Source of the DNA: Strobilurus pachycystidiatus
Taxonomy: Eukaryota > Basidiomycota > Agaricomycetes > Agaricales > Physalacriaceae
Assembly (NCBI GenBank): GCA_019915135.1
Contig: JAHLMK010000001.1
Location: 6,407,965-6,471,964, forward strand
Reading direction: 5' to 3'
DNA: 64,000 bases
Positions 44,124-64,000 of this stretch are shown piece by piece; position 1 is the stretch's first letter, and the number at the start of each line of letters is the position of its first letter. The notes under the pieces were generated by a model. That model was not told where the DNA came from. It searched no databases and saw only the letters and a program-made list of their open reading frames with translations. A program made the translations under genes and the position numbers.

Positions 44124-44503
44124 TAACTATCTAATAGCTTTGTTGTTGCGTCAACAAAATTTCCTTTTATGGACAGGAAACCATCAACAAAATGTCACAA
44201 AACTGTCAACAAAGTGTGACAGAACCGTCAACAAATGTGACAAGACAGCTAACAAATAGGACGAAGTTGACTCACAATGACTTTGAACTCAGTCTCTTCA
44301 TGTGTCTCTCAGTCTATAATGCGTATGCGGAAGTAATGTATTTGGCCGTAACGAGGTAACGAGATTAGGTAGACAGTTGATACTTCTGAATCAGTGAAGA
44401 GCATGAGGATACGCATCCAATGATGCATAATATTCATTCGAAAACAGCTGTCTTGCGCTTGCGGACGGTTAGAGGTTGGTAACGCATATTGAGGGATTCA
44501 GCC
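44124..44503 (+). mobile_element. Element A copy 1 (A1)
   Basis: This 380-bp unit starts TAACTATCTAATAGC. Arms TTTGTTG and CAACAAA form a hairpin from about position 16, followed by AATTTCCTTTTATGGAC and three to four iterons. About 186 bp is unique; from about 44310 it runs into a diverged satellite segment that restarts at an upstream point of the unit. It is cut at 44503 by a B terminus. It carries no gene. Copies A2, A3 and A4 share the 5' end. Confidence 0.75.
44184..44260 (+). repeat. Iterons of element A (GTCAACAAAGTGTGAC type)
   Basis: TCAACAAAATGTCAC, GTCAACAAAGTGTGAC and GTCAACAAATGTGAC, then a degenerate GCTAACAAAT, are spaced 21-22 bp (cores at 44184, 44206, 44228 and 44249). Two-helical-turn spacing suggests a protein-binding array on one DNA face. 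The left half of the iteron repeats the hairpin arm. Confidence 0.65.
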
Positions 44504-44585
44504 TATCTATCTAATCCTCTTTTTTGCTAGCAAGAAAAATTTCTTTTTATGGACGTAAAACGGCTAGAAACGTGACTATATCAGC
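44504..44585 (+). mobile_element. Element B fragment B1 (82 bp)
   Basis: Begins TATCTATCTAATCC, contains the TTGCTAGCAA hairpin and the first iteron, and is cut after ATATCAGC by the next B terminus. The same 82-bp truncation recurs at 47834-47915 and 50751-50832, which implies that the nested structure was copied as a block. Confidence 0.75.
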
Positions 44586-44644
44586 TATCTATCTAATCCT
44601 CTTTTTTGCTAGCAAGAAAAATTTCCTTTTATGGACGTAAAACG

Positions 44645-44723
44645 GCTAGAAACGTGACTATATCAGCTAGAAACGTGACGGAAGAACAGCTAAAAACGTG
44701 ACCATATTAGCTAGAAACGTGAC
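44645..44723 (+). repeat. Iterons of element B (GCTAGAAACGTGAC), four copies
   Basis: GCTAGAAACGTGAC starts at 44645, 44666 and 44710, with GCTAAAAACGTGAC at 44689: spacings of 21, 23 and 21 bp. The GCTAG half repeats the centre of the terminal hairpin (GCTAGC). The array recurs in every full B leader. It is a likely binding array for an unknown protein. Confidence 0.72.
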
Positions 44724-44796
44724 ACAATCACCCACCAACTATTCATCACATGTTATAGTCAGCCACATTTATCCTTCCTTCTACGCTCAAGTCGCT

Positions 44797-44826
44797 GTTC
44801 AAAGTCATCTTACTATGACTTTGAAC
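44797..44826. repeat. 12-bp-arm hairpin in the B leader
   Basis: GTTCAAAGTCAT (44797-44808) and ATGACTTTGAAC (44815-44826) are perfect inverted repeats around six bases. The GTTCAAAG arm is shared with hairpins in the satellite and upstream of the first gene. Confidence 0.78.
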
Positions 44827-46638
44827 TCATTGTTCATTCATGTTTCAATCAAGATCAATGAAGACCTATACTTATGCATCTCATATTCAATTCCGAGTAT
44901 GATGATGGCCCACGCGGACTGGGGTACTTGTATTTTGGGTACAGTCTATTTTTCGTATGCGGAAGTAATGTATTGGGCCGTAACGAGGAAACGAGATTAG
45001 GTAGACAGTTGATACTTCTGAATCAGTGAAGAGCATGAGGATACGCATCCAATGATGCATAATATTCATTCGAAAACAGCTGTCTTGCGCTTGCGGACGG
45101 TTAGAGGTTGGTAACGCAGATCGAGGGATTCAGCCTAACGTAAAAAGCCCACCCGGCCTCGGATGTGTCTTTGGAAGGCCTATCCTTTCACTTTTAGTAG
45201 GTTAGGAGGTGAGGGCACATAGGCGACGTGCCACAAGAAGTTCAAACTCAGTTCAAGAAAGGGCGCGCGTACGAGGCCTCTGTCTCGGTGCGTATCGCGG
45301 TTCAAAGTAAGATGTGTATCACTAGACGAGTTCAAAGATGTCCTGAGTTGCTTTTGAACCGTTTACTTTTTTTCTAACTTGTCAGATATGGCCTGTTAAT
45401 GCGTCGTTTATTCGGAAGACTAGTCGGTCAAAGGAAGCAATCTATTCGCTCGTGCTCGGTTGTTCAAACTGTTATAGATCTGAGCACATGTGACATATGA
45501 AGGGCAGAGTCAAGTCAGGTCTGACGGCGAGTGCCGCAGGAGCCGTAAACAACACACGTTCATGCTAAATACCGGGAATGGTCGCAGTCAAGTTCAGAAA
45601 TGTCGTAGTCAGTCAAAGATGGGCAATTCAGAATCGTATTGACATTTCGAGCGTGATGATGGCCCACACGGGCTGTGCGACTTGCATTTTGACTATGGCC
45701 TCTTGTTTGCCTGTGGAAATAATGTCTTTGGCCGTAGTGCGGCAATGAGATTAGATGGGGAGTTGATACTGCCGTATTCGAGAAGAGCACAAAGATACGG
45801 ACAACACGTATAGTGTGAACAGATTGTGCACCTTATACGGGCTCACTCGGTTAGAAGGTTAGGTTCGGGTTAGAAGGTTTGGGGTTCTCGGTGTTCTCGC
45901 CCGCGCAGCGGAAGAGAACGTTTAAGAAAGGGCCCGCGTGCGGGGCCTCTGTCTCGGTGTGTATTGGAGACGCACCAAGATATGTGATATTATGCTAAAC
46001 GTGTGTTCCGGCCGCGTTGTGATTTGATTCGGATAGTAAGTATCAGACGTGCGTTCAAGTGATGGGTTCAAAGATGTCTTGGATTATCTTTGAACTAACG
46101 CAGATGTTCAATTTATTTCGTTAGGTGTCAACAATGACTTCACGTTACGCTTCTTAATCGGAAACCTACTCGGTTGAAGAAAGCGAGCAATACGCTTGTT
46201 TTCGGATGTTCGGCATGACATGAACTTGAGTATATGTAAAATATGAAGAGAAAACTCCAAGTGACGCGTGGCGGCATGTGCCGTGAGAGTCACAAATAAC
46301 AGTTTGTTGGAACGGTGTATTGCGGGTGCTGAATTCAGTCAAGTTTGGTGTATCTGGGTTCGTAATCAAATTCCGAGTATGATGATGGCCCACGCGGACT
46401 GGGGTACTTGTATTTTGGGTACAGTCTATTTTTTGTATGCGGAAGTAATGTATTGGGCCGTAACGAGGAAACGAGATTAGGTAGACAGTTGATACTTCTG
46501 AATCAGTGAAGAGCATGAGGATACGCATCCAATGATGCATAATATTCATTCGAAAACAGCTGTCTTGCGCTTGCGGACGGTTAGAGGTTGGTAACGCAGA
46601 TCGAGGGATTCAGCCTAACGTAAAAAGCCCACCCGGCC

Positions 46639-47429
46639 TATCTATCTAATCCTCTTTTTTGCTAGCAAGAAAAATTTCCTTTTATGGACGTAAAACGGCT
46701 AGAAACGTGACTATATCAGCTAGAAACGTGACGGAAGAACAGCTAAAAACGTGACCATATTAGCTAGAAACGTGACACAATCACCCACCAACTATTCATC
46801 ACATGTTATAGTCAGCCACATTTATCCTTCCTTCTACGCTCAAGTCGCTGTTCAAAGTCATCTTACTATGACTTTGAACTCATTGTTCATTCATGTTTCA
46901 ATCAAGATCAATGAAGACCTATACTTATGCATCTCATATTCAATTCCGAGTATGATGATGGCCCACGCGGACTGGGGTACTTGTATTTTGGGTACAGTCT
47001 ATTTTTCGTATGCGGAAGTAATGTATTGGGCCGTAACGAGGAAACGAGATTAGGTAGACAGTTGATACTTCTGAATCAGTGAAGAGCATGAGGATACGCA
47101 TCCAATGATGCATAATATTCATTCGAAAACAGCTGTCTTGCGCTTGCGGACGGTTAGAGGTTGGTAACGCAGATCGAGGGATTCAGCCTAACGTAAAAAG
47201 CCCACCCGGCCTCGGATGTGTCTTTGGAAGGCCTATCCTTTCACTTTTAGTAGGTTAGGAGGTGAGGGCACATAGGCGACGTGCCACAAGAAGTTCAAAC
47301 TCAGTTCAAGAAAGGGCGCGCGTACGAGGCCTCTGTCTCGGTGCGTATCGCGGTTCAAAGTAAGATGTGTATCACTAGACGAGTTCAAAGATGTCCTGAG
47401 TTGCTTTTGAACCGTTTACTTTTTTTCTA
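46639..47429 (+). mobile_element. Element B copy B3 (791 bp)
   Basis: Starts with the B terminus directly after CCCGGCC of a satellite unit, carries the full leader and part of a satellite unit, and is cut after TTTCTA by element A2. It is the first segment of the 2917-bp duplicated block. Confidence 0.72.
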
Positions 47430-47809
47430 TAACTATCTAATAGCTTTGTTGTTGCGTCAACAAAATTTCCTTTTATGGACAGGAAACCATCAACAAAATG
47501 TCACAAAACTGTCAACAAAGTGTGACAGAACCGTCAACAAATGTGACAAGACAGCTAACAAATAGGACGAAGTTGACTCACAATGACTTTGAACTCAGTC
47601 TCTTCATGTGTCTCTCAGTCTATAATGCGTATGCGGAAGTAATGTATTTGGCCGTAACGAGGTAACGAGATTAGGTAGACAGTTGATACTTCTGAATCAG
47701 TGAAGAGCATGAGGATACGCATCCAATGATGCATAATATTCATTCGAAAACAGCTGTCTTGCGCTTGCGGACGGTTAGAGGTTGGTAACGCATATTGAGG
47801 GATTCAGCC
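47430..47809 (+). mobile_element. Element A copy 2 (A2)
   Basis: A 380-bp copy starting TAACTATCTAATAGC after TTTCTA of a satellite segment, ending at the same internal point as A1 where a B terminus begins. By eye it matches A1, including the diverged satellite tail (TATTTGG, GGTAACG). Confidence 0.75.
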
Positions 47810-47915
47810 TATCTATCTAATCCTCTTTTTTGCTATCTATCTAATCCTCTTTTTTGCTAGCAAGAAAAATTTCCTTTTATGGACGTAAAACGGCTAGAAA
47901 CGTGACTATATCAGC
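47810..47915 (+). mobile_element. Nested element B fragments B4 (24 bp) and B5 (82 bp)
   Basis: B4, 47810-47833, contains only the terminus up to TTTTTTGC and is cut in the hairpin by B5 (47834-47915), itself cut after ATATCAGC by B6. Both cuts fall at C before an original TAG. Confidence 0.75.
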
Positions 47916-49555
47916 TATCTATCTAATCCTCTTTTTTGCTAGCAAGAAAAATTTCCTTTTATGGACGTAAAACGGCTAGAAACGTGACTATATCAGCTAG
48001 AAACGTGACGGAAGAACAGCTAAAAACGTGACCATATTAGCTAGAAACGTGACACAATCACCCACCAACTATTCATCACATGTTATAGTCAGCCACATTT
48101 ATCCTTCCTTCTACGCTCAAGTCGCTGTTCAAAGTCATCTTACTATGACTTTGAACTCATTGTTCATTCATGTTTCAATCAAGATCAATGAAGACCTATA
48201 CTTATGCATCTCATATTCAATTCCGAGTATGATGATGGCCCACGCGGACTGGGGTACTTGTATTTTGGGTACAGTCTATTTTTCGTATGCGGAAGTAATG
48301 TATTGGGCCGTAACGAGGAAACGAGATTAGGTAGACAGTTGATACTTCTGAATCAGTGAAGAGCATGAGGATACGCATCCAATGATGCATAATATTCATT
48401 CGAAAACAGCTGTCTTGCGCTTGCGGACGGTTAGAGGTTGGTAACGCAGATCGAGGGATTCAGCCTAACGTAAAAAGCCCACCCGGCCTCGGATGTGTCT
48501 TTGGAAGGCCTATCCTTTCACTTTTAGTAGGTTAGGAGGTGAGGGCACATAGGCGACGTGCCACAAGAAGTTCAAACTCAGTTCAAGAAAGGGCGCGCGT
48601 ACGAGGCCTCTGTCTCGGTGCGTATCGCGGTTCAAAGTAAGATGTGTATCACTAGACGAGTTCAAAGATGTCCTGAGTTGCTTTTGAACCGTTTACTTTT
48701 TTTCTAACTTGTCAGATATGGCCTGTTAATGCGTCGTTTATTCGGAAGACTAGTCGGTCAAAGGAAGCAATCTATTCGCTCGTGCTCGGTTGTTCAAACT
48801 GTTATAGATCTGAGCACATGTGACATATGAAGGGCAGAGTCAAGTCAGGTCTGACGGCGAGTGCCGCAGGAGCCGTAAACAACACACGTTCATGCTAAAT
48901 ACCGGGAATGGTCGCAGTCAAGTTCAGAAATGTCGTAGTCAGTCAAAGATGGGCAATTCAGAATCGTATTGACATTTCGAGCGTGATGATGGCCCACACG
49001 GGCTGTGCGACTTGCATTTTGACTATGGCCTCTTGTTTGCCTGTGGAAATAATGTCTTTGGCCGTAGTGCGGCAATGAGATTAGATGGGGAGTTGATACT
49101 GCCGTATTCGAGAAGAGCACAAAGATACGGACAACACGTATAGTGTGAACAGATTGTGCACCTTATACGGGCTCACTCGGTTAGAAGGTTAGGTTCGGGT
49201 TAGAAGGTTTGGGGTTCTCGGTGTTCTCGCCCGCGCAGCGGAAGAGAACGTTTAAGAAAGGGCCCGCGTGCGGGGCCTCTGTCTCGGTGTGTATTGGAGA
49301 CGCACCAAGATATGTGATATTATGCTAAACGTGTGTTCCGGCCGCGTTGTGATTTGATTCGGATAGTAAGTATCAGACGTGCGTTCAAGTGATGGGTTCA
49401 AAGATGTCTTGGATTATCTTTGAACTAACGCAGATGTTCAATTTATTTCGTTAGGTGTCAACAATGACTTCACGTTACGCTTCTTAATCGGAAACCTACT
49501 CGGTTGAAGAAAGCGAGCAATACGCTTGTTTTCGGATGTTCGGCATGACATGAAC
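47916..49555 (+). mobile_element. Element B copy B6 (1640 bp)
   Basis: Full B leader followed by satellite sequence including a complete half-B segment, cut after CATGAAC by B7. No gene is present. Confidence 0.72.
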
Positions 49556-50346
49556 TATCTATCTAATCCTCTTTTTTGCTAGCAAGAAAAATTTCCTTTT
49601 ATGGACGTAAAACGGCTAGAAACGTGACTATATCAGCTAGAAACGTGACGGAAGAACAGCTAAAAACGTGACCATATTAGCTAGAAACGTGACACAATCA
49701 CCCACCAACTATTCATCACATGTTATAGTCAGCCACATTTATCCTTCCTTCTACGCTCAAGTCGCTGTTCAAAGTCATCTTACTATGACTTTGAACTCAT
49801 TGTTCATTCATGTTTCAATCAAGATCAATGAAGACCTATACTTATGCATCTCATATTCAATTCCGAGTATGATGATGGCCCACGCGGACTGGGGTACTTG
49901 TATTTTGGGTACAGTCTATTTTTCGTATGCGGAAGTAATGTATTGGGCCGTAACGAGGAAACGAGATTAGGTAGACAGTTGATACTTCTGAATCAGTGAA
50001 GAGCATGAGGATACGCATCCAATGATGCATAATATTCATTCGAAAACAGCTGTCTTGCGCTTGCGGACGGTTAGAGGTTGGTAACGCAGATCGAGGGATT
50101 CAGCCTAACGTAAAAAGCCCACCCGGCCTCGGATGTGTCTTTGGAAGGCCTATCCTTTCACTTTTAGTAGGTTAGGAGGTGAGGGCACATAGGCGACGTG
50201 CCACAAGAAGTTCAAACTCAGTTCAAGAAAGGGCGCGCGTACGAGGCCTCTGTCTCGGTGCGTATCGCGGTTCAAAGTAAGATGTGTATCACTAGACGAG
50301 TTCAAAGATGTCCTGAGTTGCTTTTGAACCGTTTACTTTTTTTCTA
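49556..50346 (+). mobile_element. Element B copy B7 (791 bp)
   Basis: Repeats B3 at a 2917-bp offset: full leader, partial satellite, then cut by A3 at the same base. It starts the second composite block. Confidence 0.72.
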
Positions 50347-50726
50347 TAACTATCTAATAGCTTTGTTGTTGCGTCAACAAAATTTCCTTTTATGGACAGG
50401 AAACCATCAACAAAATGTCACAAAACTGTCAACAAAGTGTGACAGAACCGTCAACAAATGTGACAAGACAGCTAACAAATAGGACGAAGTTGACTCACAA
50501 TGACTTTGAACTCAGTCTCTTCATGTGTCTCTCAGTCTATAATGCGTATGCGGAAGTAATGTATTTGGCCGTAACGAGGTAACGAGATTAGGTAGACAGT
50601 TGATACTTCTGAATCAGTGAAGAGCATGAGGATACGCATCCAATGATGCATAATATTCATTCGAAAACAGCTGTCTTGCGCTTGCGGACGGTTAGAGGTT
50701 GGTAACGCATATTGAGGGATTCAGCC
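50347..50726 (+). mobile_element. Element A copy 3 (A3)
   Basis: A 380-bp copy of A2 at a 2917-bp offset, with the same left and right junctions. Confidence 0.75.
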
Positions 50727-50832
50727 TATCTATCTAATCCTCTTTTTTGCTATCTATCTAATCCTCTTTTTTGCTAGCAAGAAAAATTTCCTTTTATGGA
50801 CGTAAAACGGCTAGAAACGTGACTATATCAGC
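50727..50832 (+). mobile_element. Nested element B fragments B8 (24 bp) and B9 (82 bp)
   Basis: Same nested pair as at 47810-47915, repeated at a 2917-bp offset (50727-50750 and 50751-50832). Confidence 0.75.
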
Positions 50833-52945
50833 TATCTATCTAATCCTCTTTTTTGCTAGCAAGAAAAATTTCCTTTTATGGACGTAAAACGGCTAGAAAC
50901 GTGACTATATCAGCTAGAAACGTGACGGAAGAACAGCTAAAAACGTGACCATATTAGCTAGAAACGTGACACAATCACCCACCAACTATTCATCACATGT
51001 TATAGTCAGCCACATTTATCCTTCCTTCTACGCTCAAGTCGCTGTTCAAAGTCATCTTACTATGACTTTGAACTCATTGTTCATTCATGTTTCAATCAAG
51101 ATCAATGAAGACCTATACTTATGCATCTCATATTCAATTCCGAGTATGATGATGGCCCACGCGGACTGGGGTACTTGTATTTTGGGTACAGTCTATTTTT
51201 CGTATGCGGAAGTAATGTATTGGGCCGTAACGAGGAAACGAGATTAGGTAGACAGTTGATACTTCTGAATCAGTGAAGAGCATGAGGATACGCATCCAAT
51301 GATGCATAATATTCATTCGAAAACAGCTGTCTTGCGCTTGCGGACGGTTAGAGGTTGGTAACGCAGATCGAGGGATTCAGCCTAACGTAAAAAGCCCACC
51401 CGGCCTCGGATGTGTCTTTGGAAGGCCTATCCTTTCACTTTTAGTAGGTTAGGAGGTGAGGGCACATAGGCGACGTGCCACAAGAAGTTCAAACTCAGTT
51501 CAAGAAAGGGCGCGCGTACGAGGCCTCTGTCTCGGTGCGTATCGCGGTTCAAAGTAAGATGTGTATCACTAGACGAGTTCAAAGATGTCCTGAGTTGCTT
51601 TTGAACCGTTTACTTTTTTTCTAACTTGTCAGATATGGCCTGTTAATGCGTCGTTTATTCGGAAGACTAGTCGGTCAAAGGAAGCAATCTATTCGCTCGT
51701 GCTCGGTTGTTCAAACTGTTATAGATCTGAGCACATGTGACATATGAAGGGCAGAGTCAAGTCAGGTCTGACGGCGAGTGCCGCAGGAGCCGTAAACAAC
51801 ACACGTTCATGCTAAATACCGGGAATGGTCGCAGTCAAGTTCAGAAATGTCGTAGTCAGTCAAAGATGGGCAATTCAGAATCGTATTGACATTTCGAGCG
51901 TGATGATGGCCCACACGGGCTGTGCGACTTGCATTTTGACTATGGCCTCTTGTTTGCCTGTGGAAATAATGTCTTTGGCCGTAGTGCGGCAATGAGATTA
52001 GATGGGGAGTTGATACTGCCGTATTCGAGAAGAGCACAAAGATACGGACAACACGTATAGTGTGAACAGATTGTGCACCTTATACGGGCTCACTCGGTTA
52101 GAAGGTTAGGTTCGGGTTAGAAGGTTTGGGGTTCTCGGTGTTCTCGCCCGCGCAGCGGAAGAGAACGTTTAAGAAAGGGCCCGCGTGCGGGGCCTCTGTC
52201 TCGGTGTGTATTGGAGACGCACCAAGATATGTGATATTATGCTAAACGTGTGTTCCGGCCGCGTTGTGATTTGATTCGGATAGTAAGTATCAGACGTGCG
52301 TTCAAGTGATGGGTTCAAAGATGTCTTGGATTATCTTTGAACTAACGCAGATGTTCAATTTATTTCGTTAGGTGTCAACAATGACTTCACGTTACGCTTC
52401 TTAATCGGAAACCTACTCGGTTGAAGAAAGCGAGCAATACGCTTGTTTTCGGATGTTCGGCATGACATGAACTTGAGTATATGTAAAATATGAAGAGAAA
52501 ACTCCAAGTGACGCGTGGCGGCATGTGCCGTGAGAGTCACAAATAACAGTTTGTTGGAACGGTGTATTGCGGGTGCTGAATTCAGTCAAGTTTGGTGTAT
52601 CTGGGTTCGTAATCAAATTCCGAGTATGATGATGGCCCACGCGGACTGGGGTACTTGTATTTTGGGTACAGTCTATTTTTTGTATGCGGAAGTAATGTAT
52701 TGGGCCGTAACGAGGAAACGAGATTAGGTAGACAGTTGATACTTCTGAATCAGTGAAGAGCATGAGGATACGCATCCAATGATGCATAATATTCATTCGA
52801 AAACAGCTGTCTTGCGCTTGCGGACGGTTAGAGGTTGGTAACGCAGATCGAGGGATTCAGCCTAACGTAAAAAGCCCACCCGGCCTCGGATGTGTCTTTG
52901 GAAGGCCTATCCTTTCACTTTTAGTAGGTTAGGAGGTGAGGGCAC
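50833..52945 (+). mobile_element. Element B copy B10 (2113 bp), longest B body
   Basis: Full leader followed by satellite through one unit and into the next as far as GGTGAGGGCAC, the same base at which A1 interrupted the main array. It carries the variant TGCTGAATTC in place of TGTTGCATTC. Confidence 0.72.
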
Positions 52946-52986
52946 TAACTATCTAATAGCTTTGTTGTTGCGTCAACAAAATTTCC
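52946..52986 (+). mobile_element. Element A fragment A4 (41 bp)
   Basis: Contains the A terminus and hairpin up to AAAATTTCC, then is cut by the first TATACC terminus. The left junction is the same as A1, so A1 and A4 derive from one insertion event that was later copied. Confidence 0.75.
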
Positions 52987-53002
52987 TATACCTATAAGCC
53001 CT

Positions 53003-53023
53003 GTTAATTCGACTCGAATTAAC
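53003..53023. promoter_or_regulatory. Terminal hairpin of T1 (GTTAATTCG arms)
   Basis: Arms GTTAATTCG and CGAATTAAC flank the loop ACT, 16 bp inside the T1 terminus. It recurs at 57438-57458 and 61216-61236. The T2 element keeps a hairpin with the same TTCGACTCGAA centre but different outer arms. A recognition role in transposition or end joining is inferred. Confidence 0.72.
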
Positions 53024-53199
53024 TTTGCGTCCCCGTTTTGGTCGAAATTGTATTTGCAGGTCCCTTTAGGGTAGGGGACCACTGTCCCAAAACAGCTAGG
53101 CCGCAAATTCAAAACTCGGCCGGCTAGAGCGCGCTCTTTGATACCGCACCCGGGGCGGCCTGAATTCAGCTCAGCAACCGGCACTCCCCAGACCTCAAG

Positions 53200-54000
53200 A
53201 TTGTATTTGCAGGTCTTTTAGGGTTGGGTGAGGGTGGGGGGAGAGAGTTTGGGACCAGGCGACATCCGCGCGGCACCCCGTAGCTGCACCTTTATATACG
53301 CAGGTACCGCAAACGACGTGGTGGGCCCGGGACCGCTTCTCGGGTTTCGACACCAGTGAGGAATATGCTTATAATAGCTATATGAACGTCCTCAATGAGT
53401 CCCGGCACCGCAAAGTTGCCGCGTGGCTCCGAACTCCTATTTGACCAGGAGCACATCTGGCAGCGTGGGACCATAACATTCTCAGGACTTGATATTGTAT
53501 TTGCAGGTCCCTTTGGCATTCAGAAGACTGGGAAAGTCGGTTTCAAGACAATACACAATCCGTGCGGCTTCATGTAGCTGTACCTTCATTTACGCAGGAA
53601 CCGCAAACAACCTGGTGGGCTCGGGACCGCTTCTCGTGTCTTGACCCCAGTTGACAATATGCTTATAGTAGCTATGTGAACGTCCTCAATGAGTCCCGGC
53701 ACTGCAAAGTGGTCGTGTGGCTCCCAACTCCTGTTTGACCGGGTGCACATCTGGCAGCGCGAGAACCCAACATTCTCAGGACTTGATATTGTATTTGCAG
53801 GTCCCTTTGGCATCTAGATGACTGGGAAAAGTGGTTTCATGACAGTACACAATCCGTGCGGCTTCCCGTAGTTGTACCTTCATTTGCGCAGGTACCGCAA
53901 ACGACCTGGTGGGCCAGGGACCACTTTTCGTGTCTCGGCATCAGTTGGAAATATGCTTATAATAGCTATATTAACGTCTTCACTCAGTCCCGGTCCCGCA
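53200..54000. repeat. 294-bp tandem repeat in the T1a leader (about 2.7 copies)
   Basis: ATTGTATTTGCAGGTC starts at 53200, 53494 and 53788, and TAGCTGCACC-like words at 53281, 53575 and 53869, all 294 bp apart. The copies are moderately diverged. It recurs in T1b (57635-58435) and partly in T1c. T2 has an array of the same period with different sequence. Confidence 0.9.
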
Positions 54001-54159
54001 AATCCATTGCCTGACTTAAGACGGTGAAGAACAGCAAACGTGTCTGCAAGACAACAACAGTGCCCTTAAGCTTCGATTAGCAACTGTGGAATATCTAAAC
54101 AAGTGTCCTCGTCACTATGCTTCTGTTCTATAGTAGGAGAAAAGTACAAGAAAATTCAT

Positions 54160-54320
54160 CTTGAGGCCATGTGCATAGCCATCTGAAATTCTGGCAGAAA
54201 TCCAAGTGGCTGTGCAGTGGCTATGCAGTGGCCTCAAATTTCTGGCAGAAATCCATGTGGCTGTGCTGTGGCTATGCTCTGGCCTCAGATTTCAGGCAGA
54301 AATTTATGTGGCTGTGTTTT
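54160..54320. repeat. 51-bp tandem repeat in the T1a leader
   Basis: GGCAGAAAT words at 54193, 54244 and 54295 are 51 bp apart, within GTGGCTGTG-rich units. It recurs in T1b at 58595-58755. The rest of 54001-54461 holds no gene. Confidence 0.8.
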
Positions 54321-54358
54321 TCAAGTTGCCATTATTTTGCCATATACTAATATGGTAA

Positions 54359-54427
54359 TTGTGTCCCACTGGACCGAGGTAGTTTGCTCCTTGACCTCTT
54401 ACCACAACCTTCCTAATTGGGACACAA
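54359..54427 (+). promoter_or_regulatory. Upstream palindrome and conserved box of the T1 gene
   Basis: Perfect 10-bp inverted arms TTGTGTCCCA (54359-54368) and TGGGACACAA (54418-54427) lie just upstream of the gene. The box ACCTTCCTAATTGGGA within it is conserved in T2 (ACCTTCCCAATTGGGA) at about the same distance, 60 bp upstream of the split start. It is a likely promoter element; a copy lies at 58794-58862. Confidence 0.55.
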
Positions 54428-54461
54428 ATTGCAATTTCTTTCGCCATTGTCTGCTCTTCCA

Positions 54462-57421
54462 ATGTACGTCTTTAACTGTTTTTTTTAGTATTGCCTGACA
54501 CTTTACGCTATAGGGGAGGTAGTAAAGGTCGCAAAAATCCTTGTGATCATCCTGGCTGTGACTTTCGAGACCACCAGGAAAGTTTGGCTCGTCACTATCG
54601 GGCCTATCATGAAACTTCGTATCTGGTGTTTGTCGCCGACTCTACTGGTGCGTATTTACTGATTCTCTTATAATTCTGTCTCATCAGTTTTTTTAGGGTC
54701 AGGCAATCACCGCCTCATTGAACGTAACCCGGCCACTGCTCTCGTCACCTGTATCGACAATCTCTGCAACAATCACTTCGAATCTTTTGAAGCTTTCCGT
54801 CTGCACTTCCAGAATGTGCATGATGGAAAGCTTACCAAGTACACGGAAGACAAAAAACTCGAGTATCTAGCCAATCTGGACAAAGCCGCTTCTGATGATG
54901 ATGATGATGACAATGACGATTCCCACTCTGGCTCCCCATCGCCTCGTCACGGTAGTCTCTTCGGATCTTCCCCCACCCGTCCTTTTACACCCGGTGCCTT
55001 TGGTAAATTGCCCAGCCCTCTTCGTCCTCAGGCGAGTCCTGCCCGTCGCGGTCGAGTTCACTCTCCCGTTTCTCCGTCGATCAACCTGGCATCTCGTGCT
55101 TCCCACTCCCCCGGGGCCTCTCCGTCCATCCGTTCTAGGCGTGTCGCTTCTCGCAGCACTTCTCGTCATCATCCGTATCCCGAACCAAGCATTCTGTTCT
55201 CCACCCGGGAGTCCGTCGCAACACCTCCACCGGCAAGCTTGGAAACACCGTCCCCACTCCCTCCTAATCCTCTTAGACTTTTTGCTTTGCGGTCTGCGGC
55301 TGCAACTCCAGTAGTTGTAGCCCAGGACGTGTACTCTTTGAACTCGTCGCCGGAGCAATCCTCAGATGGTGATGATCCAATGTCTCCCACCAATGATGGT
55401 ATGGACGTGGACAGTGAGCCTGTTCCTCAGGCCACCACGACCGGTATTCGTCTTAATCCCGACACGGACTATCTGCGCCCTCTCGACTTCTTCCCCAACA
55501 TGTGTGTCCACACCGAGCTCCGACTTATCATCTGTTTGAAGTGTGGAATCTCTGTTCTGCCTTCCCGTGCATGGAAACACGCCAATGGACACCTTCGCGG
55601 TGAGACGCTTCCCAAGTGCAAGGCAGAGCTTGATGACTTGGTGGAGCGTTTGCACTTATGTCAGACGTCCTCGGATATTCCAGTTGTCGCTCTCGGTGGA
55701 CCACCAGTCCAAGGGCTTGCTCTTGAGCAAAAGGGATATCGGTGTTCTCAATGCGATCATGTTCAGGGGACCTTTGACTCATTCAAGGTTCATGTCACCA
55801 CACGTCATCCTGGCATAGGGATACCCGCTCGAGATCTTGTGATTGAGGTCGACCATTATCAAACTCTTCTTCCCCCGCCCCATGTTCGGTATTTCCCAGT
55901 CGATATCTTTCAAAAGCCTAGGGATCGGACAAAACTCTCAGAACTAGTCAATCGCCACATTGTCCGTCCCTCTGCCGATCACGACATCCTCCTTGCTCCA
56001 GACTCGCAACACGACACCCACATCTGGACCAACAACAATGCATGGTCGACTCTGTTTGTAGAAGAACGCAAGTCCCGGGACGCTGTGGCCAAGCTTAGGA
56101 AGCTCACTTGGATTCCGGGTTACCAAGACGAAGGTTCTCCGCTCCGCAACTTGCGCGATGTGGTCCTGAACTATCTGCGGCACACCGGATCGTTGGCCAA
56201 GAACACAGACATGGGTGTACGTCGTTTAATGGAACAGTGCCCTCCGTAAGTTGTTTATTAGTCCTTTTCTTCATAATCTAATCTTTGTCTCTTGAAGCCC
56301 TGATCAACACTCCAATGCCATGTATATTCTTTCGGATGACAAAGTTGGGGACTATGCATTGGATCTTACCCGTCTTGTTGCTCTGCTCGCACAGGATGTC
56401 GATGGTGTGGCACCCAGGCATTCCGATGATGTGAAGCATACCGAAGCCCTCCTCGCACTCTTAGATGTGGATCGGAAAGCGGTGAACATGCCCGCTGCCC
56501 GTGAAGCTTTGCATAACCTCATCTGGCCTATCCTCTGCCGTACGACTCCTAAGAACAAGTTCGACCATATCCTGGAGACGTACTATGCGTTAACCTGCTT
56601 ACGCGAGGATGGTAACTATAAGGAGCCCAAGAACACTACGGGGCTCTTTGCGCATATGAAGTATATCATGCGCCTGGCTTGGTGTTACCAAGGATTGAAG
56701 GAGGTGGCAGATTCTGATGAGCGTCTTTACGAGTACGTTCCAATAACTCATTCTAAATCCACTCTACTAATTGTGTTGTCAACAGTGTCATGTTACGCAT
56801 TGGCATGCCGATCTTTTCACCAAACAACTCGAGTTCGTGGAATTCGGTATGCGACTTACAGCGCTACTGTTCCTATCTGGCTCATGAGTCGATTCAACCT
56901 CCCACCACCCGGGTGTCCGATGATTGCAACTCGTTCACGCACAACGATAGCACTATCCACATTCCCACTCTACGCACCCGGTTCCGTGCTCTCCTTGATG
57001 GTATAAAGGCCGATATGGCTGCTCTTCTTCCCGATCCTGCCATGATGTTTACCAAGTTCCCTGAGAACACGGTGGACCAATGGGCAGAGGAGGAAGTGGG
57101 CTACTCTTTCCTTTCAGCCGGCGACGAAGTCTCTCCCACCTACGATCTATTTGACAAGTTGGTGGACGATCCCAATCAGCGCATGTTCTTCAATGCTCCC
57201 GGTGGTGCGCCCCATGTATCCCCTGCCGGTGTCGAGGAAGTCCACAACAAACTCAATGATATCGGTCAGCGTTTGGGCTTTGCAGCTGTCACGCTTGCTG
57301 GTCAGTTTGCTCGTGGTGGCCAATACCCTGATGTACGCATTCAAAACGCGACACGGGGTCGAGGCATCTTCCTTGGCTTTGCAGAGCTATGGATGGCTCT
57401 CCGTCGTGCTAAGACAGAGAC
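54462..57421 (+). pseudogene. 3'-truncated OrsD/RecQ-family gene in T1a (N-terminal part only)
   Basis: Exons: 54462-54463, 54514-54647, 54697-56245, 56298-56732, and 56786 to the cut at 57421, one frame of about 918 codons. The start codon is split, AT|G, across the first intron. Four C2H2-like fingers are visible: CDHPGC...H-x4-H, CIDNLC...H-x4-H, CLKC...H, and YRCSQC...H-x4-H. Between the second and third lie an acidic D run and a long S/P/R-rich disordered region. Exon 4 (LREDGNYKEPKNTTG) aligns with LKADGSFNSAKDVTP of the complete gene at 6491-12217, showing common ancestry. The tyrosine-recombinase GH...Y box and all helicase motifs are missing because the next element begins. Splice sites and frame are intact, so it decayed by truncation rather than mutation. 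Confidence 0.82.
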
Positions 57422-60400
57422 TATACCTATAAGCCCTGTTAATTCGACTCGAATTAACTTTGCGTCCCCGTTTTGGTCGAAATTGTATTTGCAGGTCCCT
57501 TTAGGGTAGGGGACCACTGTCCCAAAACAGCTAGGCCGCAAATTCAAAACTCGGCCGGCTAGAGCGCGCTCTTTGATACCGCACCCGGGGCGGCCTGAAT
57601 TCAGCTCAGCAACCGGCACTCCCCAGACCTCAAGATTGTATTTGCAGGTCTTTTAGGGTTGGGTGAGGGTGGGGGGAGAGAGTTTGGGACCAGGCGACAT
57701 CCGCGCGGCACCCCGTAGCTGCACCTTTATATACGCAGGTACCGCAAACGACGTGGTGGGCCCGGGACCGCTTCTCGGGTTTCGACACCAGTGAGGAATA
57801 TGCTTATAATAGCTATATGAACGTCCTCAATGAGTCCCGGCACCGCAAAGTTGCCGCGTGGCTCCGAACTCCTATTTGACCAGGAGCACATCTGGCAGCG
57901 TGGGACCATAACATTCTCAGGACTTGATATTGTATTTGCAGGTCCCTTTGGCATTCAGAAGACTGGGAAAGTCGGTTTCAAGACAATACACAATCCGTGC
58001 GGCTTCATGTAGCTGTACCTTCATTTACGCAGGAACCGCAAACAACCTGGTGGGCTCGGGACCGCTTCTCGTGTCTTGACCCCAGTTGACAATATGCTTA
58101 TAGTAGCTATGTGAACGTCCTCAATGAGTCCCGGCACTGCAAAGTGGTCGTGTGGCTCCCAACTCCTGTTTGACCGGGTGCACATCTGGCAGCGCGAGAA
58201 CCCAACATTCTCAGGACTTGATATTGTATTTGCAGGTCCCTTTGGCATCTAGATGACTGGGAAAAGTGGTTTCATGACAGTACACAATCCGTGCGGCTTC
58301 CCGTAGTTGTACCTTCATTTGCGCAGGTACCGCAAACGACCTGGTGGGCCAGGGACCACTTTTCGTGTCTCGGCATCAGTTGGAAATATGCTTATAATAG
58401 CTATATTAACGTCTTCACTCAGTCCCGGTCCCGCAAATCCATTGCCTGACTTAAGACGGTGAAGAACAGCAAACGTGTCTGCAAGACAACAACAGTGCCC
58501 TTAAGCTTCGATTAGCAACTGTGGAATATCTAAACAAGTGTCCTCGTCACTATGCTTCTGTTCTATAGTAGGAGAAAAGTACAAGAAAATTCATCTTGAG
58601 GCCATGTGCATAGCCATCTGAAATTCTGGCAGAAATCCAAGTGGCTGTGCAGTGGCTATGCAGTGGCCTCAAATTTCTGGCAGAAATCCATGTGGCTGTG
58701 CTGTGGCTATGCTCTGGCCTCAGATTTCAGGCAGAAATTTATGTGGCTGTGTTTTTCAAGTTGCCATTATTTTGCCATATACTAATATGGTAATTGTGTC
58801 CCACTGGACCGAGGTAGTTTGCTCCTTGACCTCTTACCACAACCTTCCTAATTGGGACACAAATTGCAATTTCTTTCGCCATTGTCTGCTCTTCCAATGT
58901 ACGTCTTTAACTGTTTTTTTTAGTATTGCCTGACACTTTACGCTATAGGGGAGGTAGTAAAGGTCGCAAAAATCCTTGTGATCATCCTGGCTGTGACTTT
59001 CGAGACCACCAGGAAAGTTTGGCTCGTCACTATCGGGCCTATCATGAAACTTCGTATCTGGTGTTTGTCGCCGACTCTACTGGTGCGTATTTACTGATTC
59101 TCTTATAATTCTGTCTCATCAGTTTTTTTAGGGTCAGGCAATCACCGCCTCATTGAACGTAACCCGGCCACTGCTCTCGTCACCTGTATCGACAATCTCT
59201 GCAACAATCACTTCGAATCTTTTGAAGCTTTCCGTCTGCACTTCCAGAATGTGCATGATGGAAAGCTTACCAAGTACACGGAAGACAAAAAACTCGAGTA
59301 TCTAGCCAATCTGGACAAAGCCGCTTCTGATGATGATGATGATGACAATGACGATTCCCACTCTGGCTCCCCATCGCCTCGTCACGGTAGTCTCTTCGGA
59401 TCTTCCCCCACCCGTCCTTTTACACCCGGTGCCTTTGGTAAATTGCCCAGCCCTCTTCGTCCTCAGGCGAGTCCTGCCCGTCGCGGTCGAGTTCACTCTC
59501 CCGTTTCTCCGTCGATCAACCTGGCATCTCGTGCTTCCCACTCCCCCGGGGCCTCTCCGTCCATCCGTTCTAGGCGTGTCGCTTCTCGCAGCACTTCTCG
59601 TCATCATCCGTATCCCGAACCAAGCATTCTGTTCTCCACCCGGGAGTCCGTCGCAACACCTCCACCGGCAAGCTTGGAAACACCGTCCCCACTCCCTCCT
59701 AATCCTCTTAGACTTTTTGCTTTGCGGTCTGCGGCTGCAACTCCAGTAGTTGTAGCCCAGGACGTGTACTCTTTGAACTCGTCGCCGGAGCAATCCTCAG
59801 ATGGTGATGATCCAATGTCTCCCACCAATGATGGTATGGACGTGGACAGTGAGCCTGTTCCTCAGGCCACCACGACCGGTATTCGTCTTAATCCCGACAC
59901 GGACTATCTGCGCCCTCTCGACTTCTTCCCCAACATGTGTGTCCACACCGAGCTCCGACTTATCATCTGTTTGAAGTGTGGAATCTCTGTTCTGCCTTCC
60001 CGTGCATGGAAACACGCCAATGGACACCTTCGCGGTGAGACGCTTCCCAAGTGCAAGGCAGAGCTTGATGACTTGGTGGAGCGTTTGCACTTATGTCAGA
60101 CGTCCTCGGATATTCCAGTTGTCGCTCTCGGTGGACCACCAGTCCAAGGGCTTGCTCTTGAGCAAAAGGGATATCGGTGTTCTCAATGCGATCATGTTCA
60201 GGGGACCTTTGACTCATTCAAGGTTCATGTCACCACACGTCATCCTGGCATAGGGATACCCGCTCGAGATCTTGTGATTGAGGTCGACCATTATCAAACT
60301 CTTCTTCCCCCGCCCCATGTTCGGTATTTCCCAGTCGATATCTTTCAAAAGCCTAGGGATCGGACAAAACTCTCAGAACTAGTCAATCGCCACATTGTCC

Positions 60401-61199
60401 GTCCCTCTGCCGATCACGACATCCTCCTTGCTCCAGACTCGCAACACGACACCCACATCTGGACCAACAACAATGCATGGTCGACTCTGTTTGTAGAAGA
60501 ACGCAAGTCCCGGGACGCTGTGGCCAAGCTTAGGAAGCTCACTTGGATTCCGGGTTACCAAGACGAAGGTTCTCCGCTCCGCAACTTGCGCGATGTGGTC
60601 CTGAACTATCTGCGGCACACCGGATCGTTGGCCAAGAACACAGACATGGGTGTACGTCGTTTAATGGAACAGTGCCCTCCGTAAGTTGTTTATTAGTCCT
60701 TTTCTTCATAATCTAATCTTTGTCTCTTGAAGCCCTGATCAACACTCCAATGCCATGTATATTCTTTCGGATGACAAAGTTGGGGACTATGCATTGGATC
60801 TTACCCGTCTTGTTGCTCTGCTCGCACAGGATGTCGATGGTGTGGCACCCAGGCATTCCGATGATGTGAAGCATACCGAAGCCCTCCTCGCACTCTTAGA
60901 TGTGGATCGGAAAGCGGTGAACATGCCCGCTGCCCGTGAAGCTTTGCATAACCTCATCTGGCCTATCCTCTGCCGTACGACTCCTAAGAACAAGTTCGAC
61001 CATATCCTGGAGACGTACTATGCGTTAACCTGCTTACGCGAGGATGGTAACTATAAGGAGCCCAAGAACACTACGGGGCTCTTTGCGCATATGAAGTATA
61101 TCATGCGCCTGGCTTGGTGTTACCAAGGATTGAAGGAGGTGGCAGATTCTGATGAGCGTCTTTACGAGTACGTTCCAATAACTCATTCTAAATCCACTC
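57422..61199 (+). mobile_element. Telomeric element T1b (3778 bp, 3' truncated)
   Basis: Direct repeat of T1a at an offset of 4435 bp with no difference noticed, cut at 61199 by T1c. The cut lies in the intron after exon 4 (CCACTC followed by TA in the intact copy). Leader, 294-bp repeats (57635-58435) and palindromes are all present. Confidence 0.88.
58897..61199 (+). pseudogene. 3'-truncated OrsD/RecQ-family gene in T1b
   Basis: Same gene as in T1a, 4435 bp further on: exons 58897-58898, 58949-59082, 59132-60680 and 60733-61167, then 32 nt of intron 4 before the cut. It encodes about 706 codons with the four fingers but no recombinase or helicase motifs. The split AT|G start and all splice sites are conserved. 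Because the donor at 61168 no longer has its acceptor, read-through would end in the next element. Confidence 0.82.
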
Positions 61200-61604
61200 T
61201 ATACCTATAAGCCCTGTTAATTCGACTCGAATTAACTTTGCGTCCCCGTTTTGGTCGAAATTGTATTTGCAGGTCCCTTTAGGGTAGGGGACCACTGTCC
61301 CAAAACAGCTAGGCCGCAAATTCAAAACTCGGCCGGCTAGAGCGCGCTCTTTGATACCGCACCCGGGGCGGCCTGAATTCAGCTCAGCAACCGGCACTCC
61401 CCAGACCTCAAGATTGTATTTGCAGGTCTTTTAGGGTTGGGTGAGGGTGGGGGGAGAGAGTTTGGGACCAGGCGACATCCGCGCGGCACCCCGTAGCTGC
61501 ACCTTTATATACGCAGGTACCGCAAACGACGTGGTGGGCCCGGGACCGCTTCTCGGGTTTCGACACCAGTGAGGAATATGCTTATAATAGCTATATGAAC
61601 GTCC
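61200..61604 (+). mobile_element. Telomeric element T1c (405 bp fragment)
   Basis: Repeats the first 405 bp of T1a (offset 8213), including terminus, hairpin and the start of the 294-bp array, then is cut after GAACGTCC by the T2 terminus. It contains no gene. Confidence 0.88.
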
Positions 61605-61619
61605 TATACCTATAAGCGG

Positions 61620-61642
61620 GCGTAGTTCGACTCGAAATACGC
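61620..61642. promoter_or_regulatory. Terminal hairpin of T2
   Basis: Arms GCGTAGTTCG and CGAAATACGC flank ACT with one mismatch, 15 bp inside the terminus. Compared with T1 the outer stem bases changed on both sides while the TTCGACTCGAA centre stayed, so pairing is conserved rather than sequence. Confidence 0.7.
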
Positions 61643-61699
61643 TTTCCGTCGCCGATTTCCTCCGTGCCGCTCGGGCGGGAGGGTCTTAGGGTCAGGATT

Positions 61700-62640
61700 C
61701 ATGTCCCAAAAAAGCTAAGCCGCCCGAGGCCCGTGCGGCCCGCCCGAGCGCCATCTTTACCGCGCCCGGATCGGGCCGCCGGGGCCGGCACCTCAACCCG
61801 ATGGCTCCGGGGGCTGAATTTTTTCGGGCGCATCCCCCTAGGGTTAGGAAGACTGGGAGGGAAGGTTTCGTGGTCATCGGGTCGCAGGTCGCCGTACACG
61901 AGCGCCATCTCTGATTACGCTCATACCGCGGCAGCTCGGGCGGGAGCAGTGCACGTCCTCGGGACTCAACCTGTATTGGAAAGATGTTTCTAATAGCTAT
62001 ATGAAGGTCCTCAGGTGGCACGAGCCCGGCCCCAATGCCGTACAGCCTGCGGCCGCTGTGCGACGAGGAGCACATGGGCCAACTTGCCAACTATATATAC
62101 TCGGGACCTGATTTTTGTTGGGCGCATCCCAGTATGATAAGGGAAAATAGGGAAAGAGGCGTTGCGGTCATTGGGTTCCCGGTCGCCGGATATGAGCGCC
62201 ATCTGTGATTACGCTCATACCGCGGCAGCTTGGGCGGGAGCAGTGCACGTCCTCGGGACTCAACATGTATGAGAAAAATGCTTGTAATAGTCATATAAAG
62301 GTCTCCAAGTGGCACGAGCCCGGCCCCAGCACCGTGTGGCTTGCGGCTCCTGTGTGACAAGGAGCACATGGGCCAACTTGCCAACTATATATACTCGGGA
62401 CCTGATTTTTGTTGGGCGCATCCTAGTATGATAAGGGAAAATAGGGAAAAGGGCTTCGCGGTCATTGGGTTCCCGGTCGCCGGATATGAGCGCCATCTGT
62501 CATTACGCTCATACCGCGGCAGCTCAGGCGGTTGCAGTGCACATCCTCGGGACTTGACCTATATGGGAAAGATGCTTCTAACAGTTATGTGAAGGTCTCC
62601 AAGTGGCACGAGCCCGGCCCCAGCACCGTAGGGCTCATAG
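61700..62640. repeat. 294-bp tandem repeat in the T2 leader (about 3 copies)
   Basis: AGCGCCATCT starts at 61901, 62195 and 62489, and CTCGGGACCTGA words at 62100 and 62394, again exactly 294 bp apart. The sequence is different from the T1 array except for short words such as TAATAGCTATATGAA(C/G)GTCCTCA. Confidence 0.88.
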
Positions 62641-63143
62641 CAGATGACCTGCGCACACAGTCACCAAAGTTTTTGGCAGAATGTTGAGATCTGATGGCAT
62701 AGTCCAGTATGCCCAAGTGGCTGATGTAAATAGGGTCAGGATAGTCTAGGAACATGGGTAAGTATGACTTATACTGCGGATCCAGTTGCGCATTGGTTAA
62801 ATGATACGTAGACGGTGGTACGACTACAAAGTCCATAACTTGACGTTTCTGATAGCTACGACTAAACTGACTATATGGCCGCGTAGAGACTGTTAACACT
62901 CAACAGAAATTTCTTTACCCTTGGATGGAAGTAGTACTGCTACCCAAAATTCTAGCCGAAATTTGTACCGAGGGATTTTCTGCCGGATATTTCTTTGGGT
63001 GTGCTATTAAATTTGGTCTTGTTGAATCAGATCCCCTATAACAACTCAAATTAGGGGATCCAGGTAATTTCCTCCTAAAACATACCACCACCTTCCCAAT
63101 TGGGAACATATTCTACGACTTTTGACTATCTTTAGCCCTCACA
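62641..63143. other. T2 leader between the repeats and the gene
   Basis: No gene is seen. It contains a perfect 9-bp-arm inverted repeat, GATCCCCTA (63030-63038) and TAGGGGATC (63052-63060), and the box ACCTTCCCAATTGGGA near 63088 shared with T1 upstream of the split start codon. Confidence 0.55.
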
Positions 63144-63874
63144 ATGTGCGTCTTTTAACATTTTTTTTCTTGCATTGTCTGTTCATCCAGCTACAGGGGA
63201 GGCGTTAGAGCTCGCAAGAAAAAATGCGAGATTTGCGATACCGCAGTGTATCAAGAGCGGCTTTCCCATCACATTACGGATGACCATGACTTGTCCTATC
63301 TCGTCTTTACTTCCGAACCCATCAGTGCGTATTCATTAGGCCTACATTTTTATACTGTTCTCTAAGCTTCTCCTATGAATTAGGGGACGGTGAGCATCGT
63401 ATCTTGGAACGCAACTCCCCTACCGGCCAAATCACCTGTCCCGACCTCCTGTGCAACGAACACTTTGTCTCTTTCCCTAAGCTCCGCAGTCACTTCAACA
63501 AGGAGCATGGTGGCCCTCTCACCAAGTATTCGGACACGCATCGAGAGCTATATCTTGAACGTCTGGCTAACCCTTCTGCTTCTTTGGATGATGAAGATGA
63601 TACCCCTTCCCACACTTCGTCTCCCGGTCTTCGCAGTCTCTTTGATGTTTCGCCCATCCGCCCTCACACCCCCGGTGCCTTTGGGACCATGCCTGGTCAT
63701 ATTGGCGCCAGGCTCAGTCCTGCTCGCCGAGGTCGTGCCAGTACACCGGTCTCGCCATCCAGGTCTCCCATTGCTCTGGTCGCACATGTTCCGCACACTC
63801 CTAGTGCTTCCCCGTCCATCCGCTCAAGTCGTGTCGCTTCTCGCAGTGCTTCTCGTCACCACCCGTATCCGTAG
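63144..63874 (+). pseudogene. Telomere-truncated OrsD-type gene in T2 (N-terminal part)
   Basis: Exons: 63144-63145 (AT), 63197-63324, and 63384 onward. The AT|G start is split by a 51-nt intron exactly as in T1. The protein begins MGGVRARKKK and has two C2H2-like fingers (CEIC...H-x5-H and CPDLLC...H-x4-H), a short acidic stretch and the start of the S/P/R-rich region, ending SRHHPYP. Coding stops where telomere repeats begin at about 63871, which happen to supply a TAG at 63872-63874. The same SRHHPYP stretch continues normally in T1. It lacks the OrsD core pair of fingers, recombinase and helicase. Confidence 0.82.
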
Positions 63875-64000
63875 GGTTAGGGGGTTAGGGTTAGGGTTAG
63901 GGTTAGGGGGTTAGGGTTAGGGGTTAGGGTAGGGGTTAGGGGTTAGGGTTAGGGTTAGGGGGTTAGGGTTAGGGTTAGGGTTAGGGTTAGGGTTAGGGGT
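63872..64000 (+). repeat. Terminal telomere repeat tract (TTAGGG)n
   Basis: About 129 bp of TTAGGG units with variants TTAGGGG, TTAGGGGG and one TAGGGG, running to the window edge. The G-rich strand runs 5' to 3' toward the end, as expected for a right chromosome end. No subtelomeric spacer separates it from the truncated T2 exon. Confidence 0.97.

Follow-up and report, generated by a model that had tools for sequence, protein, structure and literature searches.

A candidate one-ended mobile element with a recombinase-like domain in its telomere-linked helicase gene at the chromosome ends of Strobilurus pachycystidiatus

RecQ-like helicases linked to telomeres have been known in fungi since 1998, when they were found in Ustilago maydis (cited in PMC7473861 and PMC10532341). 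As far as the excerpts of these papers go, the U. maydis gene UTASb carries an OrsD domain (PMC10532341), Agaricus bisporus var. burnettii possesses 19 subtelomeric helicase gene models, about half of them truncated (PMC7473861), and M. graminicola harbors 13 helicase copies, six of them truncated (PMC4522978). The excerpt of the 2020 Agaricus paper reports no domain beyond the helicase core and leaves the role of telomere-linked helicases open (PMC7473861). Here, we describe units carrying such a gene in a 64,000-nt stretch of Strobilurus pachycystidiatus DNA (GCA_019915135.1, contig JAHLMK010000001.1, positions 6,407,965 to 6,471,964, forward strand), hereafter referred to as the window; contigs are denoted C1, C2, etc., and loci by L numbers. 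Like the helicases of U. maydis (UTASa/UTASb), A. bisporus and M. graminicola (the same excerpts), the units are subtelomeric and occur as intact and truncated copies; added here are a recombinase-like domain, a joining rule, C|T (the bar marks the join), and a 5′ terminus that is constant and carries a hairpin. The original prediction, made from the window alone, knew of no named element behaving in this way; as regards the gene, which is the known telomere-linked RecQ-like helicase of Ustilago, Agaricus and others, that claim went too far.

Parts of this organization are shared with several other systems. Crypton, DIRS and Starship elements, to which the units would be akin in tyrosine-recombinase mobility, have two ends and interior insertion sites, whereas here a single end is found, the direction is outward, and the helicase resides in the same gene. 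The HeT-A, TART and TAHRE elements of Drosophila chromosome ends combine a fixed inner end with outward growth. The likeness to HeT-A drawn in the original prediction holds for this geometry and goes no further: no reverse transcriptase (RT) domain was detected in the seven unit open reading frames (ORFs) to which the RT scan was confined, the genes read outward, predicted introns are kept, and the inner joins read C|TATACC instead of showing poly(A) or telomere repeats. The same differences separate the units from telomeric Penelope-like elements, which also have a fixed inner end and grow outward at chromosome ends (PMC4522978, in excerpt). Nicking of a specific site by a tyrosine-recombinase-like enzyme, followed by one-sided DNA transfer, is described in the excerpt of PMC8152469 for the MobK and TcpM relaxases; these serve bacterial plasmid mobilization, without a telomere role. 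No paper joining telomere-linked helicases with a tyrosine recombinase was evident among those listed from the literature searched, outside of which many subscription papers lie; one listed paper, on T. cruzi, mentions a tyrosine recombinase.

The window is the right end of the 6.47-Mb contig C1, in a genome of 51.8 Mb assembled into 61 contigs. The only two protein hits that carried an organism name, Hymenopellis and Suillus, are in keeping with an agaricomycete. From the inside outward, it holds a recombinase–helicase gene, an array of a 1480-bp repeat, units of a short family, the four units considered here, and the telomere (Table 1). Each of the four units opens with the exact motif TATACCTATAAGC, always on the forward strand; with one mismatch allowed, 0.06 occurrences of the motif are expected in the window by chance, and four or more were seen in none of 100 shuffles. 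Unit 1 differs from unit 2 at 0 of 3778 positions and from unit 3 at 0 of 405, and unit 4 belongs to a different subfamily (GGGCGTAG), its identity with a unit from the C20 right end amounting to 97.7% across 2278 bp. The starts, direction, lengths and telomere cap given in the original prediction proved exact, and its view that the first three units match over their shared length, the events being recent, is borne out by these counts. An Rfam scan of the window at the gathering threshold returned 0 matches.

Genome-wide, TATACCTATAAGC occurs exactly at 56 places (14 forward, 42 reverse) and CTATACCYATAAGS at 107; among the CTATACCYATAAGS places listed, which reach as far as C44 (later contigs being covered by the exact-motif listing alone), most belong to one C44 array. 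After the duplicate loci L002–L005, L007 and L008 and one site with less than 24 nt upstream had been dropped, 45 distinct junctions were compared in the fetched DNA, and the base preceding the motif was C in all 45. The targets were judged from the best-matching uninterrupted copy, disregarding copies that themselves start with the motif or with two near-variants of it; the next base of this copy was T at 31 of 31 junctions, the expectation for T after C being 0.23 each. Targets for two (C8, C6) of the 14 junctions initially lacking one were resolved later, bringing the count to C|T in 33 of 33 known targets. When all target copies are counted, T is the sole base at 25 of the 31 junctions and the majority base at the other six. 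Beyond the shared T the next base is unbiased, and extended microhomology was therefore rejected. Since the first base of the motif is common to the target, the join lies within the CT dinucleotide.

The clearest case is the left end of C7, which is 99.9% identical over 5445 bp to the right end of C50 and gives way to the unit precisely at gctcccC|T, a point at which the sequence continues uninterrupted in C50 and three more copies. At C8, a unit cuts a repeated subtelomeric open frame (740 aa; no homologue scored among 7999 candidates), and the four empty copies retrieved by DNA search all read aatcc|TCAATTC; the empty counterpart of the C6 junction, located on C30, reads ggcc|TAACGAG. Also on C8 (L031:850-3302), a Gag-like retrotransposon frame with a zinc knuckle is cut by a unit at CTCC|TATACC. 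An interior tandem at C2:1310245-1324667, with a spacing of ~4.8 kb, holds GTATACCTATAAGG at four places, which are the only ones genome-wide without a preceding C. The original prediction had the units cut wherever an eroding end happened to stop; with C|T at every known target, the internal 3′ ends are hardly random erosion points, and an enzyme choosing CT is indicated. None of the five telomere-capped 3′ ends examined ends at CT, and these look like products of erosion or healing.

The motif is directly followed by a hairpin, several pairs of which display compensatory (two-sided) changes. Across 17 of the 18 distinct termini (the one omitted belongs to a very short unit interrupted by a different family), the ten hairpin pairs are formed in 161 of 170 cells, against at most 144 in any of 2000 shuffles. 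The hexamer TATACC is present as a single copy at most termini and as two copies at the C7 and C44 termini.

The region of the gene upstream of the helicase resembles a tyrosine recombinase. The R-K-xxxR-H-Y catalytic residues are invariant in all 15 aligned sequences, with an H-to-Y spacing of 9, and are also visible in the complete-looking gene of the window; the catalytic-domain fold of tyrosine recombinases is seen on the predicted model of the C50 copy. Residues and model suggest that the unit genes encode a tyrosine-recombinase-like domain beside the telomere-linked helicase. Run on the Foldseek candidates, the slower aligner VIA-align led to recombinases, being the only aligner to do so. 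Pfam revealed no recombinase family in any of the 15 members, and a sequence search of the PDB gave four weak matches, none of them relevant. The superfamily 2 (SF2) helicase core was detected in the full C50 unit (PF00270, E=2.9e-8) and, as PF00270 with PF00271, in the C25 and window genes, and an OrsD/zinc-finger part lies nearby (PF12013, E=1e-7, 3.5e-12 and 6.7e-10). Copies of the unit type, some of them partial, reside on C50, C29, C3, C6, C58 and C8, from 1.3 kb to ~173 kb from the contig ends. For the complete-looking gene of the window, no second DNA copy was found. A region with a canonical recombinase–helicase gene (C25:476299-484899 and C1:6334073-6342676, 99% identity over 8.6 kb) is present both at the telomere-capped end of C25 and ~130 kb inside C1.

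According to a hand tally, 15 of the 16 contig-end blocks with the motif point outward, and for 10 of the 16 telomere repeats are present at the end in question. The original description of the units, with a constant 5′ end, outward direction and variable 3′ end, is supported. In the tally, C44 and C61 (telomere-capped, outward) were added by hand to 14 blocks, 13 of them outward; C50 and C58 were assigned by their telomere, though the motif is nearer the other contig end; and C2 (four places) and three CTATACCCATAAGG places (C6:416535, C14 and C19:901709) were left out as probably unrelated interior repeats. The possibility of interior copies with two fixed ends, raised at the outset, was pursued in part: motif copies exist up to 186 kb from a contig end, and no second fixed end was seen at the four sites checked. 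Within the stretches read at C6, C7, C8 and C20, the target does not resume behind the unit in the manner of a Crypton; reading covered the two ends of the unit at C6 and at C20, and the C7 contig stops 2.3 kb on. The distal end of the C6 unit (7025 bp) abuts the copy of a segment located 13.8 kb upstream, the join showing an AT microhomology of only 2 bp.

Copies on different ends can be nearly identical, e.g., the units at C8 left and C9 right, which differ at 2 of 4409 positions despite unlike inner flanks. On C61, a 3′-truncated copy of a composite segment (~6.1 kb) comes after the segment itself and extends from the terminus to the telomere, outer and inner copies showing 0 mismatches and 2 gap bases over 3743 aligned bases; hence, copying begins at a terminus but runs through whatever lies beyond. 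The contig begins exactly at a terminus, and a circular molecule was considered for it and rejected, the other end consisting of telomere repeats. Interstitial runs of at least three telomere repeats were absent from the DNA scanned.

The fixed 5′ end, the C|T target, the lack of target resumption at the sites read and the outward direction, together with the telomere caps, the near-identical copies on different ends, the recombinase fold with its catalytic residues and the helicase, all support a reading to which we give slightly better than an even chance: an outward, one-ended tyrosine-recombinase element joins its 5′ end to CT and carries or copies everything out to the tip. The joining enzyme would be the tyrosine recombinase inside the element's own telomere-linked helicase gene. 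It would recognize the 5′ terminus (the TATACC hexamer or hexamers, TATAAG and the hairpin) and cut the donor at CT|ATACC and a CT in subtelomeric DNA elsewhere, so that the target's ...CT would be joined to the donor's ATACC.... As the element lacks a fixed second end, everything from the terminus outward to the donor telomere would be transferred or copied, and the old distal part of the target would be lost or left in the other product. Unequal exchange between sister chromatids would yield head-to-tail, 3′-truncated identical units such as those in the window, and exchange between different ends would give mosaics such as unit 4, free 3′ ends being healed by telomere addition or microhomology joining. 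The link between enzyme and terminus and the strand chemistry are presumed in this scheme; the recombinase probably does the cutting, strand exchange and not some other route of copying would move the tips, and the helicase may help.

Reverse transcription at chromosome ends could conceivably produce a similar picture, although we regard it as unlikely. An unspliced antisense RNA would end in a tail of the hairpin and (TATAGG)n, and the 3′ CT of a chromosome would prime on the AG of this tail in a LINE- or Penelope-like manner. Read in antisense, the terminus is a stem-loop with a short tandem hexamer in one or two copies, the inward position of the fixed end is the geometry of end-extending retroelements, introns would survive in antisense RNA, and a telomeric element of this general sort is known from M. 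graminicola (PMC4522978, in excerpt). Spliced sense mRNA is, as the original prediction argued, an improbable template, since predicted introns, as read from the sequence, are retained. An antisense route fits poorly with unit ORFs in which a recombinase-like domain is encoded and the scan found no RT domain, with joins falling inside sequences that have intact copies elsewhere, and with copies spanning several joined units, as in the C61 case. Slightly less probable, in our estimation, is the action of no dedicated enzyme at all, i.e., homologous or microhomology-mediated break repair after erosion, with TATACC as a mere break hot spot. The subtelomeres do share long near-identical segments, and the AT microhomology at the distal join of the C6 unit implies that such repair acts on the other end of the units. 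Nevertheless, repair leaves unexplained both the compensatory changes in the terminal hairpin and the CT target in every known case with an unbiased next base; it is the rival hardest to reconcile with the 33 of 33.

Still more doubtful is one-ended rolling-circle transposition of the HUH type, in which a Rep-like enzyme acting in trans would nick CT|ATACC beside the hairpin and pass the strand it displaces to a 3′ overhang ending in CT; the variable 3′ ends would result from a failure to stop. The hairpin beside the terminus, the dinucleotide target and the combination of a fixed 5′ with a variable 3′ end would all fit, and Helitron Rep domains are abundant in the genome (at least 40 matches); against this, none of the 40 matches listed lies at a listed unit, on which ground a Helitron origin was rejected, and no HUH domain or PF14214 was found in the unit ORFs scanned. 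Helitrons, moreover, insert at A|T, unlike the C|T seen here. An assembly artefact is very improbable: the ends are repeat-rich, C61 starts where the terminus does, and the left end of C20 resembles an inverted or misjoined block, but the terminus recurs on 16 blocks at contig ends, ten of which lie where the contig carries telomere repeats, and the same sites are found in filled as well as in empty form.

Several observations weigh against one-ended joining by the encoded recombinase. In the unit-type protein, the RGTE box reads RGGQ, and its model is of modest confidence (mean pLDDT 65); a Foldseek search of the PDB with the canonical model gave no match at E<=0.001, the best having E 0.75 and unrelated proteins ranking first. 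The palindromes of loxP and dif surround the join, whereas here the palindrome lies 15 bp to one side. Twelve of the 45 junctions have no known target, and at 6 of the 31 type-1 junctions a minority of diverged target copies lack the T. The left block of C20 is the sole inward one; because its 1480-bp arrays share the direction of the unit, an inversion, an old chromosome-end fusion or a misjoin may have affected the block as a whole. This subtelomere-like block (C20:1-10000, L024, and C20:32-38 kb) sits in the wrong orientation at a contig end without a telomere. On C5 (L026 near 5430), ~4.4 kb inward of the telomere, a short telomere-like stretch, TAGGTAGGGTTAGGGGGGG, stands behind 31 bp of the short family and is perhaps an old tip. 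In two other repeat families only part of the rule holds: T follows the join at 4 of 9 known targets in the short family and at 1 of 3 in a minisatellite family, two more targets of which, read by eye, gave one T and one G. Finally, a single assembly stands behind all the results.

Both of these families have a constant 5′ end: TAACTATCTAATAGC in the short family, with a preceding C at 9 of 10 distinct junctions, and TATCCCTCTTGAAACGG in the minisatellite family, with a preceding C at 5 of 5. Their movement may be due to related enzymes whose rule is less strict, or to repair. The minisatellite family is cut into helicase units and other unit DNA at differing points (L012, L014, L015, L029 and L030), and C44:1-40000 contains dozens of short units of several types, some extending for only 13–20 nt before the next terminus. 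At the left end of C9 (near C9:9492, unit 2 there), a helicase unit switches at gaaC|TA to a sequence starting with TAGCCTCCTACGC, perhaps a further family with a constant 5′ end. The 1480-bp repeat is also found near the ends of C4, C8, C15, C20 and C30, and a segment with a Pif1-type helicase frame is common to the subtelomeres of C50, C41, C12, C37, C6 and C1 at 99–100% identity.

Table 1. Coordinates of the features in the window, counted from its first letter.
Feature	Position	Strand	Remark
Complete-looking gene, other member of the recombinase–helicase family	6966..12217	+	just inside the 1480-bp array
Same gene, OrsD/zinc finger	6966-7784	+	
Same gene, recombinase-like part	7799-9916	+	RGTE, K, SHRH, TGH, Y
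Same gene, helicase (DEAD, Helicase_C)	10155-11537	+	
Same gene, C-terminal part	11507-12217	+	
Repeat array, 22 copies at exactly 1480-bp spacing	12714-44123		100% identical over the compared 300 bp
Region with units of the short family (5′ end TAACTATCTAATAGC)	44124..52986	+	last one cut by unit 1
CT junction of unit 1	52986..52987	+	target elsewhere: atttcC|TTTTATGG
Unit 1, 4435 bp	52987..57421	+	cut at C|T by unit 2
Unit 1, terminal hairpin	53002..53024	+	covariation-set columns 16-38
Unit 1, zinc-finger/OrsD frame of the telomere-linked helicase gene	54663..56249	+	PF12013, E=1e-7
Unit 1, tyrosine-recombinase-like region, start only	56757..57421	+	cut shortly after the K motif
Unit 2, 3778 bp	57422..61199	+	same sequence as unit 1; ends at C|T within a predicted intron, where it is cut
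Unit 2, terminal hairpin	57437..57459	+	
Unit 2, zinc-finger/OrsD frame	59098..60684	+	
Unit 3, 405 bp	61200..61604	+	same sequence as unit 1; unit 4 cuts it at C|T
Unit 3, terminal hairpin	61215..61237	+	
Unit 4, 2267 bp	61605..63871	+	telomere-capped
Unit 4, terminal hairpin	61620..61642	+	
Unit 4, helicase gene, 5′ frame	63290..63871	+	cut by telomere addition
Heterogeneous TTAGGG repeats, extra G	63872..64000	+	to the window end, which is the C1 end

In a wider perspective, it is conceivable, if a little short of an even chance, that basidiomycete telomere-linked helicases are the transposases of an unrecognized class of mobile elements, i.e., fusions of a tyrosine recombinase and a helicase that would move whole chromosome tips instead of bounded DNA segments, their fixed 5′ terminus being joined one-endedly to CT, and would spread from end to end while remodeling and rescuing ends beside telomerase. 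Should the unannotated middle of these proteins be a recombinase joining tips at CT, telomere-linked helicases would become mobile elements whose reaction can be tested. This would provide a mechanism for the truncated copies and for the rapid change of chromosome ends in mushrooms and smuts, and the known modes of eukaryotic transposition would gain one with a single defined end.

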